From contig NZ_FOCP01000004.1 in NCBI RefSeq assembly GCF_900110145.1, positions 124,001-188,000 of the forward strand: a stretch of 64,000 nucleotides of DNA, given 5' to 3'. The position numbers and the translations under genes are program-made. Below the pieces are notes generated by a model, which saw only the letters and a program-made list of their open reading frames with translations, ran no database searches and was not told the origin of the DNA. This document shows, piece by piece, positions 9,871 through 25,085 of this stretch (its first letter is position 1; the number at the start of each line of letters is the position of its first letter). The DNA is from Nitrosomonas marina. Its GTDB lineage: Bacteria; Pseudomonadota; Gammaproteobacteria; Burkholderiales; Nitrosomonadaceae.

Positions 9871-10605
9871 ATGACTTATTGTCTGGCGATCAGCGTTAAT
9901 AAAGGTCTTATTTTTGCTTCCGACTCAAGAACCAATGCCGGTGTTGATTATGTAACGACATACAGCAAAATGCATTCCTTTGTTTGGCCCGGCGAACGCA
10001 TCTGTGTATTACTGACCGCCGGGAATCTTGCCACATCCCAGGCAGTTGTTAACAACATCAAAACCGGACTCGCTGCACAGGGTTCCGGCATGAATCTGCG
10101 CAAAGGAAAATACCTGTATGAAGTCGCACACTATGTGGGACAGCTCAGCCAGGCGGAACAACGGGAGCATGCCGAAGCGCTGGAAAAAAGCGGTAACAGC
10201 AGCGCAGAGGCCAGTTTCATTCTCGGCGGACAAATTGCCGGACTGGCACCGGAAATTTATTTGATCTACCCACAAGGGAATTACATCAGTGCCTCACCGG
10301 AAACACCCTTTTTACAGATCGGTGAAAACAAATATGGAAAACCCATTCTGGACCGGATTATCACACCGACCACGTCCCTTGAAGATGCTGCGAGGTGTGC
10401 ACTGGTTTCACTGGAATCAACGATACGCAGCAATATTTCCGTTGGGCCGCCTCTGGAACTGGCGATCCATACAATCAACGAACTTCACGAGCCAGTCCGT
10501 ATGAAACTGACGCTGAATTCTCCGATGTACAAATCTCTCCAGAAACAATGGAATAACGGTTTACGCGATGCTTTCAGCCGGTTACCACGCTTTGACTGGG
10601 AGTAG
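9871..10605 (+). CDS. Anbu, proteasome-like N-terminal nucleophile peptidase
   Basis: This 244-residue protein matches the Anbu (ancestral beta subunit) family, relatives of the proteasome beta subunit and HslV. It begins MTYCLAISVNKGLIFASDSRT. After removal of Met1, Thr2 would be the nucleophile, with Asp18 (SDSRT) and Lys33 (YSKMHSF) in the places of proteasome Asp17 and Lys33. The glycine-rich ASFILGGQIAG strand of the beta-subunit fold is present near residue 115. Anbu assembles into open rings or helices and has shown little activity on standard substrates. Genomic context with ATP-grasp and alpha-E proteins, seen here, is the family hallmark and suggests it processes a product of the ligase. 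Its 3' end overlaps the convergent metallopeptidase gene by 32 bp. Confidence 0.9.
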   Translation: MTYCLAISVNKGLIFASDSRTNAGVDYVTTYSKMHSFVWPGERICVLLTAGNLATSQAVVNNIKTGLAAQGSGMNLRKGKYLYEVAHYVGQLSQAEQREHAEALEKSGNSSAEASFILGGQIAGLAPEIYLIYPQGNYISASPETPFLQIGENKYGKPILDRIITPTTSLEDAARCALVSLESTIRSNISVGPPLELAIHTINELHEPVRMKLTLNSPMYKSLQKQWNNGLRDAFSRLPRFDWE

Positions 10606-11704
10606 TCGCCGGTAATGAGCGCAGACTGGCATTCATTACAATGTTATGTATAAACCGCAGCTTGGCCAGCGTCACATCAGTGATTACAAAAGGATAAGCA
10701 TCATCCAATCCCATGCTGCGATTTAGCGCGTTCAAAGCAACGGACAACCGGCACCAGTCATCTAACAACGTATCAAAGACAGCGGCTTCAAAATGATCAT
10801 CGTTCATATGAGCACCTGCACCGGGTTGCGAAATATTGCTGCCTTGAATTCTGAAGCCGTAATCATGTGCAGTTTCAACAGTATCCATCATATGCAGGTA
10901 GTGCGCCCAGGTCTCGGCCCAGTCTTCCCAGGGATGTGCACTGGCATAAGCGCTGATCCAGCTCTGCTGCCATGACGGCGGCGCCCCATGCTGATAATAA
11001 TCGACCAACGCCTGTTGATAATTTTTTCGTTCGTCACCAAACAAGTTGCGAAAATCAGTGATTTTATCCGTGCCCTCAATCAGATATCCCCAGTAATAAT
11101 GACCCGATTCATGCCGAAAATGACCGAGCAGCGTACGGTAACGCTCGTTCATCTTATCACGCATTTCGATACGCGCACTGTGATCCGCCTCGCGCAGATT
11201 GATGGTTATTTTTCCCGAATGATGACCGGTGACAATGCTTTGGCTGGTGGTTACTACATTATTAAATTCCCCATGCCCGTTCATATCCTGCAAAAATTCA
11301 AAGCAGAGCCCACCATCCGGATCCTGTTGACGGTCGATTACAGGGAGATTCAAATTGTATAAAGTGTAAAGCAACCTGCGCTTTGCCTGCTCTACACGGT
11401 ACCACATCATCACATTCTTCGCCTCGGTGAGATTCGGGATGAGTTGATTCAGGCGGCAGGAGTCACACAGCATATGTGAATCTCGTTCCGGGACCATCCA
11501 GTTGCAAACATTGTAATCAATGCTGTTTTCACACTGGCGATAAGGCTGATGATTTGATATGGCCAGCCAGGTATCTTTATCTAAAGGTTCCAAGGTGCTT
11601 AATGTCCGTTGATCAGGCAAATACCCAACCATCCGGCCACATGCCAGACATTGGCTGTTCTCAAAATACAGAATATTCCCGCAAGCACACCTAAAAGTTT
11701 TCAA
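10574..11704 (-). CDS. Putative zinc-binding metallopeptidase of the Anbu neighbourhood
   Basis: This 376-residue protein has an N-terminal zinc-ribbon-like cysteine set (C6, C8, C19, C22) followed by more cysteines (C58, C67, C80, C83) and a metallopeptidase motif HESGH at residues 198-202, with a downstream WEDWAETWAHYLHMMD segment that can supply further metal ligands. It fits the family annotated as putative zinc-binding metallopeptidase (DUF2248-like), often found with Anbu, alpha-E and ATP-grasp genes. It is cytoplasmic, with no signal peptide. The gene is convergent with Anbu, overlapping it tail to tail, so the two are not one operon although the neighbourhood is conserved. Substrate unknown. 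Confidence 0.8.
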   Translation of the reverse strand: MKTFRCACGNILYFENSQCLACGRMVGYLPDQRTLSTLEPLDKDTWLAISNHQPYRQCENSIDYNVCNWMVPERDSHMLCDSCRLNQLIPNLTEAKNVMMWYRVEQAKRRLLYTLYNLNLPVIDRQQDPDGGLCFEFLQDMNGHGEFNNVVTTSQSIVTGHHSGKITINLREADHSARIEMRDKMNERYRTLLGHFRHESGHYYWGYLIEGTDKITDFRNLFGDERKNYQQALVDYYQHGAPPSWQQSWISAYASAHPWEDWAETWAHYLHMMDTVETAHDYGFRIQGSNISQPGAGAHMNDDHFEAAVFDTLLDDWCRLSVALNALNRSMGLDDAYPFVITDVTLAKLRFIHNIVMNASLRSLPATTPSQSVVTG

Positions 11705-11943: not shown

Positions 11944-13353
11944 TCAACTTGTTTCAGTCGAATAAGGAAGAATCAGAGAAAAACTCGTCGGATTTTTTCG
12001 CTGAATGCTTAATTCCGCTGAAATTTGCTCACTTAATAACTGTACCAATTGCAAACCGAGTGTCGAAGCTTGATCAATATCGAATTCTTCCGGTATGCCA
12101 ACGCCATCATCCGCAACTCGTAACTGCAATCTGCATGAATCCAGATACTTCAGGCTTACATCAATGTGTCCGGATTCACGTCCTGGAAAAGCATATTTCA
12201 TGGCATTAGAACAAAGCTCGTTGACGATCAGTCCGAGTGGTATGCTGACGTCAATCGATAGATATACATGATCGGTATTAACATTCACCTGAAATTTAGT
12301 GGTATCCAAAGCATACGAATATGACAGCGTATTCATGAGTGAAACGATGACACCGGCAAAATCCACTCGAGAAAAATCCGAAGACTCATACAGTATCTGA
12401 TGAATGAGGGCCATGGATTTTACCCTGTTCTGACTTTCTCGCAACACGGATATCACCGAATTATCAAAAATCATATCTGACTGCATGCCGAGCAAACTGT
12501 CGATTATCTGCAGGTTGTTTTTCACTCTATGGTGAATTTCTGCCAGCAACAAGTCCTTTTCTTTCAATGCGGCTTTTAATTGCTGTTCCTGATTCTTTCT
12601 CTCTGTAATATCAATTACCGACGCCAGCACCATAGCTCCCTGCAGCGCCTTGATTGGATTCAACCCTACTTCGACCGGAAACTCCCTGCCATTTTTATGC
12701 AAGCCAAAGAGATCTCTTCCATGGCCCATCGCACGCGTAGTCGGCTGCTCCATGAATTTTGTTCTTAATTCCGGATGAATCGAACGGTGTGGTTCCGGTA
12801 TCAGGATTTCTATCGGTTGGCCGATCAGTTCATCACGGCTATAGCCAAATAACGATTCAGTTGCGGAATTCACCATAACGATAGTGCCGGTCTGATTGGT
12901 CATGATCATGCCATTGGGAGAAGCTTCCACAGCCAGATGTATCATTTCTTCAGCCTGTTTTCGATCGGTCAGATCGACAATTGCGGCCAGCACCAGAATA
13001 CCCTGTTCAGTTTTAACCGGATTTAACCCCACTTCAACAGGAAATTCCTTTCCATCTTTACGCAAACCAAAAAGATCAGATCCATGACCCATTGGGCGCG
13101 ATTTCAATTCTTCAATATAGACTTCGCGATATTCGGGATGGTGTTGGCGAAAGCGCTGGGGTATCAACTTTTCGATCGGATGTCCGATCAATTCCTCTCT
13201 CGAATAACCAAACAGCTTTTCTGTTGCCGAATTTACCATGATGATATGACCCTCTTGATTCGTCATTACCATACCGTTTGGAGAAGCCTCCACTGCCAGA
13301 CGCATCATTTCTGAAGTATTATTGACTTCGCTGAATCGAGTCACCGCTGACAT
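11944..13353 (-). CDS. Soluble PAS-PAS sensor histidine kinase
   Basis: This 469-residue kinase has no membrane segment. Two PAS domains (about 16-132 and 136-255) are followed by a HisKA_2-type dimerisation domain with EIHHRVKNNLQ at 272-282, the phospho-acceptor being the His before Arg, and a HATPase domain with N-box NELCSNAMKYAF and G1 box ADDGVGIP. The two PAS domains are close copies of each other (both contain VEASPNGM, NSATE.LFGYSR and EFPVEVGLNP), a recent tandem duplication. GGAGAG stands before ATG 13353. It lies 67 bp downstream of the REC-GGDEF-EAL gene and is probably co-transcribed, so it likely phosphorylates that receiver. Confidence 0.88.
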   Translation of the reverse strand: MSAVTRFSEVNNTSEMMRLAVEASPNGMVMTNQEGHIIMVNSATEKLFGYSREELIGHPIEKLIPQRFRQHHPEYREVYIEELKSRPMGHGSDLFGLRKDGKEFPVEVGLNPVKTEQGILVLAAIVDLTDRKQAEEMIHLAVEASPNGMIMTNQTGTIVMVNSATESLFGYSRDELIGQPIEILIPEPHRSIHPELRTKFMEQPTTRAMGHGRDLFGLHKNGREFPVEVGLNPIKALQGAMVLASVIDITERKNQEQQLKAALKEKDLLLAEIHHRVKNNLQIIDSLLGMQSDMIFDNSVISVLRESQNRVKSMALIHQILYESSDFSRVDFAGVIVSLMNTLSYSYALDTTKFQVNVNTDHVYLSIDVSIPLGLIVNELCSNAMKYAFPGRESGHIDVSLKYLDSCRLQLRVADDGVGIPEEFDIDQASTLGLQLVQLLSEQISAELSIQRKNPTSFSLILPYSTETS

Positions 13354-13420
13354 ATTCTCTCCTTTCATTCGCTCACTCTCAAAAATAAAACTGCACGCCT
13401 GAAACTTATTGCAGTCGCCT

Positions 13421-15844
13421 TTAATGATAATTCGCTTGATTTTTGATCAATTCGGTAATTCTGCCCGGGAGAACCGGCTTGCTGAACAGGAATCCCTGGA
13501 ATTCGTCGCATCCGTGCGTATCCAGATAATCTACTTGTTCCGGGAACTCGATACCTTCTGCAACGACTTTTAGATTCAGTTCCTTGCCGAGTGCCAGGAT
13601 CGCCGCAGCTATGGCGCAGTCATTCTTGTCATGCGGGATATCCTTTATAAAGCTGCGATCAATTTTCAGTTTATGAATTGGCAAATTTTTCAGTGAACTC
13701 ATGCAAGAATAGCCGGTACCAAAATCGTCAATCGAAATTGATACACCCGAATTTTCGAGTTCCTTCAAATGCGCATTATCAACCAAATCATCTTGCAGGC
13801 AGGATTCTGTTATCTCTAACTCCAGTAAGTGCGCCGGAAGCTCATATTGATGCAGCAAATGATCGATTAATTTTGTTAACCTTGTGTCTGAGAACTGGCG
13901 TATCGACATATTGACAGCAATACCCAGATCAGAAAGTCCTTCCGACCGCCATACATTGAGCTGGCGGCATGCTTCGGCCAATACCCAGTTTCCAATTTCT
14001 ACCATCAACTTGCTTGATTCCGCTACGGGAATAATCTCTGCCGGAAACAGCAATCCCTTATCAGGATGCTGCCAGCGAATTAATGCCTCAACACTTGTAA
14101 CTTTTCGGCCAGATGAAGAAAATTGTGGCTGATAATGAAGAATAAATTCATTTCTCTCAAGAGCCTGATACAACTCACGCTCTCGCATCAAAAAATGACT
14201 TGCCCTTTGGGTAAGACAAGGGTGGTAGTATGCATACATATTCCGGCCACTGCTTTTGGCCTGGTACATTGCAGTATCGGCCATTTGCACAAGTGCGTCG
14301 TGGTGATCGGAATGTTCCGGATACACGCTGATACCGATGCTGCAAGACGGTATGATTTCCATACCTTCGACAATCACCGGCGCAGATAGACAATTCAGAA
14401 TTTTTTCCGCGATCCTGGTCAGTGCGTCTTTAGAATCAACATCTGATACAATCACAATGAATTCATCGCCGCCCAACCGACCAAGCGTGTCGCTTTTTCG
14501 CAACTCTGACTGTATTTTTTGAGAGATAAGACGCAACATACTATCGCCGGCCTTGTGTCCGAGTGTATCGTTGATACGCTTGAAATTATCGAGATCAATA
14601 AACAGGACTCCAAGTATCAACGATTCCCGCTTTGCTTTTTCAAGTGCGAATTTCAACCGGTCCATCACCAGCAAGCGATTAGGCAAACTGGTCAGGCAGT
14701 CATAGAAAGCAATTCGGGTTAACTGCTCCTGTGTTTTCCGCACGGTCGTAATATCCGATATCATTACAACCGACTGGTCAACATCACCATTTTTAACAGG
14801 TATCCGGCCGATATTTATCCAGACATACATTACTTCTTTATTTTTTTTATATGTCTTTATTTCACCCTGCCAGTGGCCGCTTTCTTCAACTGATCGCCAT
14901 AAACGATTGTAAGCGCTTTGACCCAGAAAGCTTTCTGTAAGGAAAATCAACTCTTTATCGAGAATATCGTTTTCCTCGAACTCGGTTATTGCATAAAAAG
15001 CCTTATTGGCGCAATGGAACTTTCTGTTTTTCAATAAGATAATTCCTTCCGTTGCGCACTCGAAAACAGTCGCAGCCTGTGCCAGGCGGTTTTGTACATG
15101 TCGGATTTCGGTCGTCTCCTGAAGAACTCCGATAACCTGATTTTTATACGGATTGGTATTGATAAAAGATTTTCCGTATAATTTATACCAATAATCCTTG
15201 CCTGAATCTGAATTTACTCGGAACTCTATTTCTTCAGCAGCACCTTTATTAAGACGCAGTTTCTGAATAAAGTCAGACACTTTATGCTTGTCACGTTTAT
15301 CGATTGACAGATCGAAATTTTTCCAGTCAGATATTGGTTCAAGATTGCCATTCTGGCTTTTACTCATAAAAATTTCATTTTTTTCTTCTGTTGCTTCCCA
15401 CGTTCCCAAGCGGGCTGCTTCAAGCGCTAGTCGAAAATGTTCTTCGCTCTTGGCAATTTTTGTATCATTCTCAAAGCGCTCCATGCTGACTTGAATCATG
15501 ACATGCAATTCACGGTCGGAAAACGGTTTTAACAAATATCCATAAGGCATGGTGGCTCTCGCTCTGCTCAGCGTTTTTTCTTCGGAATAAGCTGTCAGAT
15601 AAATAACCGGAATACTGTGTTTTTCCTGCAGTTTAGCAGCTACTTCAACGCCATCCATTTCTCCCTGAATATGTATGTCCATGAGAACCACACTCGGTAA
15701 TTCCTGACTGATCAAGGCAAAAGCCTTGTCCCCACTTGCCGCAGTACCTATTACATCGTATCCCAGTTTAGTCAAACGTCTTTTCAAGTCGAGTGCAACA
15801 ATTTGCTCATCTTCCACGATTAAAATCTTAATGTGTCTGTCCAT
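13421..15844 (-). CDS. Response regulator with PAS, GGDEF and EAL domains (c-di-GMP turnover)
   Basis: This 807-residue protein starts with a CheY-like receiver (1-120; acidic pair E11/D12, phospho-Asp56 in VLMDIHI, K in YLLKPF). Two PAS-like sensor regions follow (about 130-260 and 260-385). The diguanylate cyclase domain has an intact GRLGGDEF and an RKSD inhibitory site five residues before it. The phosphodiesterase domain has EALIRW, DDFGTGYS, KIDRSFI and VVAEGIE. Both catalytic domains therefore look competent, and the net output on cyclic di-GMP cannot be read from sequence. AGGAAAT precedes ATG 15844. It is paired with the downstream PAS kinase and divergent from the peptidase-flagellin gene, suggesting control of motility or attachment. 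Confidence 0.92.
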   Translation of the reverse strand: MDRHIKILIVEDEQIVALDLKRRLTKLGYDVIGTAASGDKAFALISQELPSVVLMDIHIQGEMDGVEVAAKLQEKHSIPVIYLTAYSEEKTLSRARATMPYGYLLKPFSDRELHVMIQVSMERFENDTKIAKSEEHFRLALEAARLGTWEATEEKNEIFMSKSQNGNLEPISDWKNFDLSIDKRDKHKVSDFIQKLRLNKGAAEEIEFRVNSDSGKDYWYKLYGKSFINTNPYKNQVIGVLQETTEIRHVQNRLAQAATVFECATEGIILLKNRKFHCANKAFYAITEFEENDILDKELIFLTESFLGQSAYNRLWRSVEESGHWQGEIKTYKKNKEVMYVWINIGRIPVKNGDVDQSVVMISDITTVRKTQEQLTRIAFYDCLTSLPNRLLVMDRLKFALEKAKRESLILGVLFIDLDNFKRINDTLGHKAGDSMLRLISQKIQSELRKSDTLGRLGGDEFIVIVSDVDSKDALTRIAEKILNCLSAPVIVEGMEIIPSCSIGISVYPEHSDHHDALVQMADTAMYQAKSSGRNMYAYYHPCLTQRASHFLMRERELYQALERNEFILHYQPQFSSSGRKVTSVEALIRWQHPDKGLLFPAEIIPVAESSKLMVEIGNWVLAEACRQLNVWRSEGLSDLGIAVNMSIRQFSDTRLTKLIDHLLHQYELPAHLLELEITESCLQDDLVDNAHLKELENSGVSISIDDFGTGYSCMSSLKNLPIHKLKIDRSFIKDIPHDKNDCAIAAAILALGKELNLKVVAEGIEFPEQVDYLDTHGCDEFQGFLFSKPVLPGRITELIKNQANYH

Positions 15845-16501
15845 ACAATTTCCTGACAAATTAGGGCTGGCCGTTATGATATCGATAAAGAGTCGTTCAA
15901 AAGGATGGTTAGCAGGGAGCCATCAGTAAAGCTAACCAATAATTACATAAACAAAACGGGTCCAGGCAAATCAAAATGTGCGCTCAATTCACATACAATA
16001 ATGAAGATCTCACCGAACCCAATTGATGGATTTTACTTTGAGTAAAACTGTATATCAATTTTTTAACGATAACCACCCTGATATAAACAATATTTAACTG
16101 ACTGATTTTTCATTTTTTCCAGAAAGTGATTCAAGCTGAGAAGGTTCGATATTCAACTGCAATTTTTTGCTGTCGGTAATCCAATAGCGTTCTTACCAAT
16201 CGCTATTACAGATCCGATTCTGCAATTTATACTTCTGTGGTAAAAGAAGAATGTATCTAAATAGCAGTCAACAGCCGCTGGATATTGAATAAACTCTGCA
16301 TTTGCGTAATGAAAACATTCAATTTTTGAAGCCCTCAGGCTCATGATTTATATCTTTTAAATCATCTCATTCACAACTATAGATTCTCGAAACCCGATCA
16401 ATCCTCAAGTACACACTGCGGATATCATTTGTGGCTAAATAAATCTTCCAGTTTTCCGTTGATACAACCACAATCACTATTAAGTTAATTTCTCTCAATT
16501 A
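15845..16501. other. Long divergent intergenic region before the flagellin gene
   Basis: This 657-bp gap separates the divergent signalling pair and flagellin. It is AT-rich and presumably contains both promoters. A 63-codon minus-strand frame at 16153-16344 has no ribosome site and atypical Cys/Tyr/Phe-rich composition, and is not called. A candidate sigma-28 element near its right end is listed separately. No other gene or RNA is evident. Confidence 0.5.
16440..16465 (+). promoter_or_regulatory. Candidate sigma-28 (FliA) flagellar promoter
   Basis: TAAATCTT at 16440-16447, then GTTGATAC at 16458-16465, resembles the flagellar consensus TAAA-N15-GCCGATAA with five of eight matches in the -10 and a one-base-short spacer. 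It lies 36 bp before the flagellin ATG, a plausible leader length. A late flagellin gene is normally FliA-dependent. The match is partial, so the call is tentative. Confidence 0.35.
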
Positions 16502-18223
16502 ATGAGCCTATCAATCCACACAAATATTGGTGCATTAAATAGTACGCGCCATTTATCTGCGACAGAAACGCACCTGAATCGTGCGCTGGAACGGCTGTCA
16601 TCGGGATTGCGTATTAATAGTGCTCGCGACGATGCTGCCGGTCTGGCGATATCTGAGCGAATGACTTCTCAGATACGCGGCTTAAATCAGGCGACACGAA
16701 ACGCCAACGATGGCGTTTCCATGTTGCAGACTGCAGATGGCGCACTGGCTTCAATATCAGACTCAATACAACGTGTTCGTGAACTTTCTATTCAGGCAGC
16801 AAACGCTACCAACAGCCTCAGCGACAAAAAAGCACTGCAGGAAGAAGCCAACCAGTTGATTCAGGAAATAGAAAGAGTTTCATCAACAACTGCATTTAAC
16901 AGCGAAAAAGTATTTGATCACACGGGAGGCAGCGTTCTGGGTGATTCCAGCCAGCTCGCCGTTATGTACGGTTTGCAAAACGGCTGGCTGGAGCAGGCTG
17001 AAAGTTTAATTCAGCAATACTACGGAATCACAGCCGATGGCGCTGACATTGATATCGAATTGACTACGTTCACGGACGGAGCCGGTGGTGTAGCTGCTCA
17101 GGTTGTGGGCATGATACCCGGCAGTTTTACCGGAAAAGCAACCGACGTCAAACTGCAAATTGATATGAGCGACTTTACGCCGCCCAATTTACCGAATGGA
17201 GGCACCGCACCAATCTACAATGACAGGATCATAGCGCATGAAATGGTCCATGCGGTTATGTACCGCAGTATGAACATCGCCTCAATGTTCGACCCGGCGG
17301 TAGATCAAGAATGGTTTCTTGAGGGTACCGCCGAATTTATTCATGGGGCTGACGAAAGACTGCAATCCTCAATAAATAGCATCGGGATTGGTGGTGTCAT
17401 GGCCCTGGCGGGTAATTTTGGTTCTGCTGGCGGCGCATGGGGTGGCAGTTCAGATGAGTATTCAGCTGCCTATGCAGCTGTCGGTTATATGCATCAGCAG
17501 ATCAAAGCAAATGGGGGTTCAGGCATAAAAGATGTCATGATCCATCTCAATCAAAATCAAAACGCAACGCTTAACGACGCCATCAATGCCGCTTCTGGCG
17601 GATTATGGGCCAGTGCTGATGCATTTAATGCGGATTTCGTAGCCAATGGAGCCGCTTATATTGCCGGTTTAAATCTGAGTGATGAAGATACCGGCGCAAT
17701 TGGTGGTGCTAATGTGGATGGCGGCGCCGTCAGGACAGCGGAGAGCGTCATACAAAACAGCAGTTCCAGAGGTGGAACGAATCCATTAAGCGGATTCAAT
17801 GAAGTATGGGAAAATATTGCACTCAATGTACCAGGTAATGAAAAAACCTTACAGGTAGGTGCCAATAAAAATGAAACACTTGATGTATCATTTGGTGCAG
17901 TCAATACTGCGGCAATGAGTATCAGCGATATTGATCTTATCAATAATGCCGGCTTTGCAACCTTTAAAATGGATCTTGCATTGGACCATATCAATAAAGA
18001 AAGAGCCAGAATAGGAGCACAGCTCAATCGCCTGGAATCAACTATTACCAATAACCAGACCAGTTCGGAATCTATGACAGCAAGTCGGTCCCGCATTCAG
18101 GACGCTGATTTTGCGATAGAAACTGCTACGATGACAAAAACACGAATCATGCAGCAGGCAGCCACAGCTATCCTCGCACAGGCAAACTCGAGCCCCGAGA
18201 TGATGCTTGCTCTACTCAGGTAG
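16502..18223 (+). CDS. Flagellin with inserted zinc metallopeptidase domain (flagellinolysin-type)
   Basis: This 573-residue flagellin keeps both filament-forming ends. The N-terminal D0/D1 helices (1-140) include RINSARDDAAGLAISERM, and the C-terminal D1/D0 (about 480-573) includes GAQLNRLEST and SRIQDADFAIETA. Between them the hypervariable region is replaced by about 300 residues that look like a gluzincin peptidase: HEMVH at 246-250 and, 24 residues later, WFLEGTAEFIHG, where Glu274 would be the third zinc ligand, the pattern of M9-type collagenases. Established knowledge: flagellins of this design (flagellinolysins) assemble into filaments bearing thousands of active proteases. The protein would be exported by the flagellar type III system, with no signal peptide. 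The gene stands alone with no strong Shine-Dalgarno. Confidence 0.92.
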   Translation: MSLSIHTNIGALNSTRHLSATETHLNRALERLSSGLRINSARDDAAGLAISERMTSQIRGLNQATRNANDGVSMLQTADGALASISDSIQRVRELSIQAANATNSLSDKKALQEEANQLIQEIERVSSTTAFNSEKVFDHTGGSVLGDSSQLAVMYGLQNGWLEQAESLIQQYYGITADGADIDIELTTFTDGAGGVAAQVVGMIPGSFTGKATDVKLQIDMSDFTPPNLPNGGTAPIYNDRIIAHEMVHAVMYRSMNIASMFDPAVDQEWFLEGTAEFIHGADERLQSSINSIGIGGVMALAGNFGSAGGAWGGSSDEYSAAYAAVGYMHQQIKANGGSGIKDVMIHLNQNQNATLNDAINAASGGLWASADAFNADFVANGAAYIAGLNLSDEDTGAIGGANVDGGAVRTAESVIQNSSSRGGTNPLSGFNEVWENIALNVPGNEKTLQVGANKNETLDVSFGAVNTAAMSISDIDLINNAGFATFKMDLALDHINKERARIGAQLNRLESTITNNQTSSESMTASRSRIQDADFAIETATMTKTRIMQQAATAILAQANSSPEMMLALLR

Positions 18224-24258: not shown

Positions 24259-24425
24259 TACTCTGATTGATATGCTTGAAATATAGTTTTAATTTGATAA
24301 TATTGAGAATCAATCCTATTATTATTTGTTTTATTATAAAAGATTTACAATTCAGCAGCGATAGATTGATCCGCAATCACATAATTGTAAACAATATTTA
24401 TTCTATTGGAGGAAAGGAGGCACGT

Positions 24426-25085
24426 ATGGCAGTGGATATTATTAATCGCCCGAATATCGGTTCTTCGGGTTTAATTGAGATTATTGACGGTTTTGAATTC
24501 GAAGGTTTCGGCTCCGGCGGATTTGGTGATGATGATTTTCTTTATATTGGTGATGAACTGGATAATTTCATTCAGGCCGGCCCTGGAAACGACGAACTTG
24601 AGGGAAACGACGGTAATGATGAATTACTTGGCGGTGACGGCAACGATATAATCGATGGTGATTCCGGCAACGACACTCTGGATGGCCAAGGTGGTACCGA
24701 CAAACTATTTGGCGGCCTCGGTGATGATATTCTGCTTGCGGGTGGCGCGGGGGATAATCCACAACTGAACCGCGACCAATTACAGGGAGACCCTCGCAAT
24801 CTGGATGGAAGTGTCATCGGCGGTGAGCCAGGTAATGACATTTTCGGTTTTTATGATCTGGGATTTTATCGCGTCAATGATTTTGTTCCAGGCGAAGATC
24901 TGTTATTTTTCGATGCGGAGAAAACCGGAATTGATAATATCGGAACGCTGGTTGGGCTCATCAGTGATATTGATCAAAGGGATGATGGTGTGACCGTTCA
25001 TTTTGGTTCAGATGCTGCATGGATTGACCTCGTCGGCGTCAATATCAACGATATTACAGCAGATATGGTTATCTTCAGTATGTAA
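24426..25085 (+). CDS. Small RTX (haemolysin-type calcium-binding) protein
   Basis: This 219-residue acidic protein has glycine/aspartate nonapeptide repeats of the RTX kind over about residues 50-105 (units such as GNDGNDELL, GGDGNDIID, GDSGNDTLD and GGLGDDILL), which bind Ca2+ in a parallel beta-roll. It has no N-terminal signal; RTX proteins usually leave by a type I secretion system with a C-terminal signal, but no such exporter is encoded in the window. The frame is open from 24267, but ATG 24426 has a very strong GGAAAGGAGG upstream and is clearly the start. No enzymatic domain is visible, so the function is open. Confidence 0.85.
   Translation: MAVDIINRPNIGSSGLIEIIDGFEFEGFGSGGFGDDDFLYIGDELDNFIQAGPGNDELEGNDGNDELLGGDGNDIIDGDSGNDTLDGQGGTDKLFGGLGDDILLAGGAGDNPQLNRDQLQGDPRNLDGSVIGGEPGNDIFGFYDLGFYRVNDFVPGEDLLFFDAEKTGIDNIGTLVGLISDIDQRDDGVTVHFGSDAAWIDLVGVNINDITADMVIFSM

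Follow-up and report, generated by a model that had tools for sequence, protein, structure and literature searches.

The gene at positions 16502 to 18223 of a 64,000-nucleotide stretch of the Nitrosomonas marina genome (contig NZ_FOCP01000004.1, positions 124,001 to 188,000; hereafter the window) encodes a flagellinolysin, a known kind of flagellin, and its product is a member of a known family. The explanation that best accounts for the data, and which we consider very probable as a whole, is that this flagellinolysin would be transcribed by sigma-28, would form a minority of the filament's subunits and would cut extracellular proteins by means of a zinc-bound site. What can be seen in the sequence comprises the flagellin ends, the catalytic motif, a full-length family match, a separate structural flagellin, fliS, the gene for sigma-28, a promoter-like element that extends throughout the genus and the absence of a Shine-Dalgarno (SD) sequence.

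The product matches the NCBIfam flagellinolysin model NF033876 over model positions 1–384 of 384, with 437.5 bits against a cut-off of 205, and the flagellin N and C domains that flank the peptidase part both score above the Pfam cut-offs (Table 1). Because the full-length score coincides with active-site residues that are invariant in the homologues, the family match is real and not due to chance; relatives in NCBI already bear the name "flagellinolysin [Nitrosomonas sp.]". The original prediction, made from the letters of the window before any database was searched, had placed an open reading frame with intact flagellin ends at this position and on this strand, and had recognized in it the design of a flagellinolysin. 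Since the flagellin ends, the HEMVH/EGTA motif and the NF033876 match are all present, this first observation is confirmed, and the predicted gluzincin-like fold described below is in keeping with the proposed design.

A homologue search with residues 140–470 as the query yielded 774 proteins under an E-value of 0.001 among 7996 candidates scored, of which the best 120 were listed; 69 of these were aligned with the window protein to give a set of 70 sequences, and a second, wider set (n = 8) reaches down to 20% identity. His246, Glu247 and His250 of the HEMVH motif, as well as Glu274 and Ala277, are identical in 70/70 aligned sequences and in 8/8 of the wider set, and the same is true of Asp221, Asp224 and Tyr320, with Asn258 and Gly275 being invariant in all 70 aligned sequences. 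Glu274 is the first residue of EGTA within WFLEGTAEFIHG (residues 271–282) and is located 24 residues past His250, exactly as had been read from the translation. The HExxH...EGxA pattern is kept in 118 of the best 120 homologues, the exceptions being P0064, which starts after HExxH, and P0078, which keeps HEMVH and the Glu and has a Ser in place of the basement Ala. By analogy, Asp221 or Asp224 is a candidate for the calcium residue, and Tyr320 is possibly the transition-state tyrosine, a role that we presume from the M9 collagenases. The spacing itself, which had been likened to that of the M9 collagenases, turns out to differ: the distance from the second His to the Glu is 24 residues here compared with 28 when counted on the alignment to ColG, a weak profile match (E 0.022), and the Pfam Peptidase_M9 score of 21.6 remains below the gathering cut-off of 26.

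In the AlphaFold2 (AF2) model of the protein, the middle is ordered and comprises a helix (residues 149–174), the peptidase part and short β-strands (residues 433–465), rather than the plain linkers that had been envisaged on either side of the insert. When the full-length model was used for structure searches, all of the matches listed were flagellins, and the middle was therefore folded alone. The fold matches of this middle-only model, which is of modest confidence (mean pLDDT 60.6), are mostly gluzincins, and we suggest that the middle, as predicted, resembles this group. A sequence search for a solved flagellinolysin structure found none among the best 60 matches listed; the entry 9n59, aligned from 5 to 572, was rejected as such a structure and is an Azotobacter filament.

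Three genes with a Flagellin_N domain are present in the genome, namely the flagellinolysin gene, a gene for a 487-aa flagellin, after which come presumed flaG, fliD and fliS genes, and a third gene, located behind a flgK-like frame, that is read as a candidate flgL. With the NCBIfam models, fliS alone scores above its cut-off, the flagellin, FlaG and FliD being named by best matches that lie below theirs; FliA, the sigma-28 gene, scores above the cut-off. Another long flagellin is also present in all ten genus genomes with flagellinolysin (nine intact, one, G004, contig-split), and in genome G023 the broken flagellinolysin is the sole Flagellin_N match. Since the genome encodes a structural flagellin as well, the filament probably does not consist of proteases, and the protease flagellin is predicted to contribute a minority of the subunits. 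The earlier picture of a filament built of thousands of proteases is thus not supported, given the separate structural flagellin, the lack of an SD sequence and the example of Clostridium haemolyticum, where the filament is mostly structural flagellin and the protease is a second component, put at up to 10% (PMC5595980).

A sigma-28-like element is observed 55–70 bases upstream of the start codon in 10/10 intact Nitrosomonas genes, these being the genes of nine intact genus-search genomes and that of N. marina Nm71, with the gene of G023 left out because it is broken. To be counted, an element had to agree with TAAA-N14-16-GCCGATAA at 8 or more of the 12 positions, the consensus being that of E. 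coli. The summed score was reached by 0/1000 dinucleotide-shuffled sets, both for all ten genes and for the seven less related ones, and by 0/300 shuffled sets when the position was left free, although such tests overstate independence because the compared genes are related. Six structural flagellins, used as a positive control, together beat 300/300 shuffled sets, and a sigma-70 scan of the region found 5 where 6.1 were expected. In addition, the 22 bases upstream of the start contain no SD sequence in 10/10 Nitrosomonas orthologues, with duplex energies of -1.1 to +0.6 kcal/mol; in the structural flagellins, an SD sequence is found in 9/9 compared, with -9.0 to -7.3 kcal/mol. Together, we infer that the sigma-28-like element and the absent SD sequence reflect transcription timed with the filament and a low dose of the protein.

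The ratio of non-synonymous to synonymous substitution rates (dN/dS) relative to the N. marina Nm71 gene is about 0.06–0.07 for every part compared (N end, middle, protease core and C end), and is given for this pair only because synonymous rates were saturated in the other comparisons. In seven of nine comparisons, no part is better conserved than the protease core (residues 150–400); in G026 the core trails the N end by 0.01. The whole middle (residues 141–470) is better conserved than the C end in eight of the nine. Among the structural flagellins of eight genus genomes, conservation is lowest in the middle for seven and level for one, G026 being absent from this comparison because the script picked up no structural flagellin there. 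From the comparison with the structural flagellins, the enzyme part is therefore more strongly constrained by selection than an ordinary hypervariable region, and the protease core is under strong purifying selection.

These patterns also bear on two other ways of understanding the protein. It could be exported by the flagellar system and then mostly released, acting as a secreted protease and not as part of the filament; secretion or release of the peptidase part has indeed been discussed for Hylemonella gracilis (PMC7643111), but selection on the filament ends matches that on the protease in strength and the C. haemolyticum protein sits in filaments (PMC5595980), such that we regard this possibility as unlikely. 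It is very unlikely that the protease-like domain has become a surface or adhesion module that no longer cuts: the Pfam M9 score under the cut-off would be compatible with such a change, but the catalytic residues are invariant in both alignments, nearly all of the best homologues keep the full motif and the core is under strong purifying selection.

The distribution of the family is similarly informative. NF033876 scores above the cut-off in 13/61 genomes of the relatives search, comprising 11/37 Nitrosomonas genomes (nine intact genes, that of G004 in two contig pieces and the broken copy of G023) and 2/24 genomes from the rest of the order, and class-wide in 4/274 genomes, own genome included, within a sample spread over many genera, flagellated or not. 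When the own genome is removed, the counts are 10/36 for the genus versus 3/273 for the class (Fisher p 3e-8, to be taken as a guide only as the genomes are related), and flagellinolysin thus appears much commoner in Nitrosomonas than in the class among the genomes sampled. One chromosomal site is common to the genes of G029, G028, G031, G034 and G027 and to remnants in G020 (the C-terminal 153 residues) and G022 (scattered pieces beside a multicopper oxidase gene), whereas the window gene and those of G006, G026 and G019 are located at other sites. The copy in G023 is apparently frameshifted, with an assembly error being possible. The two remnants and the broken copy (L020:8409-8867, L173:1065-1346 and L021:2338-4055 in G020, G022 and G023, respectively) would each be a case in which the protease was lost naturally.

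The nearest named carrier, N. marina Nm71, has a protein 95.8% identical to that of the window, and the same genes surround it there, starting with the metallopeptidase gene (10574), continuing beyond threonine synthase and reaching as far as 24258. Protein distances track those of threonine synthase (ThrC) with r 0.73 (p 0.002 by permutation) in 9/10 carriers, ThrC having been recovered from 25/30 loci plus N. marina, with G029 lost and hence nine carriers compared. These data are best read as an old gene of the genus whose inheritance has been marked by repeated losses and by some relocation. A gene of foreign origin, acquired recently and with no flagellar role, might be expected from the orphan site, the differing neighbours in other species and the scatter of the family across bacteria (PMC5595980), yet the correlation with ThrC, the promoter-like element common to the genus genes and the shared neighbours in N. 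marina Nm71 render it highly improbable. Plasmid carriage was likewise rejected, as nine plasmid records match and none does so over more than 13% of the gene. Finally, that flagellinolysin is itself the main filament protein in some condition, as its complete D0/D1 ends might allow, is scarcely plausible beside a separate structural flagellin adjacent to cap- and chaperone-type genes, the missing SD site and the mixed filaments of C. haemolyticum (PMC5595980).

Several observations nevertheless weigh against a sigma-28-transcribed, proteolytic minority subunit. The sigma-28-like element was noticed before being put to the test, reaches significance in none of the ten sequences taken singly, and has no good equivalent upstream of the structural flagellin of the own genome in the same scan. 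An SD sequence is likewise missing from 3/10 other genes of the window, and is present in most flagellinolysins looked at outside Nitrosomonas, some of whose starts are uncertain. In G019, the protease core (0.70) is less conserved than the ends (0.74), and in six of nine comparisons the N end is better conserved than the whole middle. With the middle-only model, whose modest confidence has been given above, a plain Foldseek search produced nothing better than E 0.09, and the fold list from a second look also contains non-enzymes with an M1-like fold (TFIID chains). The examined neighbours are not flagellar, which is true too of those of the active H. gracilis gene, and the gene is dispensable, as judged from the remnants or broken copy in G020, G022 and G023.

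Table 1. Features of the flagellinolysin gene and its upstream region (window coordinates).
Feature	Position	Strand	Basis
Flagellinolysin gene, 573 aa plus stop	16502..18223	+	ATG start; open reading frame; NF033876 full-length match
Flagellin_N (D0/D1), residues 5-141	16514..16924	+	Pfam PF00669, 137.3 bits
Metallopeptidase-type domain in hypervariable region, about residues 149-406 (predicted)	16946..17719	+	AF2 model, middle-only gluzincin matches, weak ColG profile match
Asp221 and Asp224, candidate calcium-site carboxylates	17162..17173	+	conservation; role by analogy with Asp206 of FliA(H), PMC5595980
HEMVH 246-250: proposed zinc ligands His246 and His250, general base Glu247	17237..17251	+	sequence, conservation
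EGTA: Glu274 proposed third zinc ligand, Ala277 "basement" residue	17321..17332	+	conservation; motif roles from PMC5595980
Tyr320, invariant	17459..17461	+	70/70 and 8/8
Flagellin_C (D1/D0), residues 490-572	17969..18217	+	Pfam PF00700, 68.2 bits
Sigma-28-like promoter element, TAAA ... TCCGTTGATA, begins 66 bases upstream of start codon	16436..16465	+	joint test, 10 Nitrosomonas genes
Stretch before start codon without SD sequence	16480..16501	+	anti-SD duplex energy +0.1 kcal/mol

Within the window, the gene lies beside a PAS histidine kinase gene (11944–13368, minus strand) and a response regulator-PAS-GGDEF-EAL gene (13421–15859, minus strand), an order that is retained in N. marina Nm71. 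As a clue to function these neighbours were rejected, since none of the other eight intact Nitrosomonas genes has a close match to them next to it. Only distant relatives occur there: G028 and G031 have a kinase of 25% identity close to the gene, and in G019 the gene adjoins part of a GGDEF-EAL gene (32% identity), the check in G019 and G026 having covered a short flank on one side. A multicopper oxidase gene adjoins flagellinolysin in 5/8 of these other intact genes. The window also encodes a zinc metallopeptidase that belongs to a different family (Pfam Peptidase_Mx, with a zinc ribbon; 10574–11704, minus strand), adjoined by a gene for a proteasome-subunit-like protein (9871–10605, plus strand), and a protein with RTX calcium-binding repeats (24267–25085, plus strand) that is a candidate secreted protein. 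Elsewhere in the class, genome G124 (L178:277-3555) encodes a flagellin of 1092 aa in which the HExxH...WFTEG motif recurs within a far longer middle; this candidate giant flagellinolysin scores 180.1 bits with NF033876, under the cut-off.

Taken as a mechanism, the gene would likely be transcribed by the flagellar sigma factor (sigma-28) and the protein exported through the flagellar system, where it would co-polymerise with ordinary flagellin as a minority subunit, its dosage being low because translation would start weakly. The predicted active site would bind zinc and calcium, and proteolysis would favour large hydrophobic residues after the cut, as in two characterised relatives. Nitrosomonas oxidizes ammonia, is a chemolithoautotroph and does not feed on peptides, and this speaks against nutrition as the main role. 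The most likely use, put forward tentatively as the least certain step, would be to trim proteins locally in the biofilm or floc that surrounds the cell. More doubtful is a further proposal that the dose is set by design, such that sigma-28 switches the gene on with the filament wherever the gene is located, the missing ribosome-binding site keeps the filament sparsely studded with protease, and this filament loosens the protein matrix of the cell's own floc, from which the cell swims out.

What is new here is the genus-wide sigma-28-like element, the absence of the SD sequence, the enrichment in the genus and the minority-subunit model; the family itself is known. N. marina Nm71, a harmless organism which carries the gene in the same place, and the loss lineages G020, G022 and G023 provide systems in which the function could be tested. 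None of the papers searched joins flagellinolysin or a proteolytic flagellin with Nitrosomonas, although the 74 species listed by PMC5595980 may include the genus. Flagellinolysins in betaproteobacteria are not new (PMC5595980, PMC7643111), and the natural role of proteolytic flagellins is described as unclear (PMC7643111).

Close known systems include Nitrosomonas entries named flagellinolysin in NCBI, for example P0006 and P0020, which are 87% and 76% identical to the window protein and belong to the same family by name, with none of the papers searched treating them. The M9 collagenases ColG, ColH and ColT have the gluzincin fold that is predicted here, and share a WF-EGTAEF-like motif, but carry collagenase accessory domains where the window protein has flagellin ends, and differ in the spacing and the Pfam score already described; indeed, cleavage of type I collagen by a flagellinolysin could not be shown (PMC5595980). 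FliA(H) of C. haemolyticum resembles the Nitrosomonas protein in its flagellin ends, in the gluzincin motif within the hypervariable region, in a candidate calcium Asp and in the presence of a separate structural flagellin; His233, His237 and Glu262 serve as its ligands, and Asp206 belongs to the calcium site (PMC5595980). FliA(H) is distinct in that the His237–Glu262 spacing is 25 rather than 24, that its gene resides in a flagellar cluster (PMC7643111) whereas that of Nitrosomonas is an orphan, and that its activity and filament location have been shown (PMC5595980), both being predictions for the Nitrosomonas protein. HgrFlaMP of H. gracilis has a host from the Comamonadaceae and an activity that was shown with zinc and calcium, as is only predicted for the Nitrosomonas protein, but it too is a betaproteobacterial flagellinolysin encoded outside a flagellar cluster and bearing the same motif (PMC7643111).
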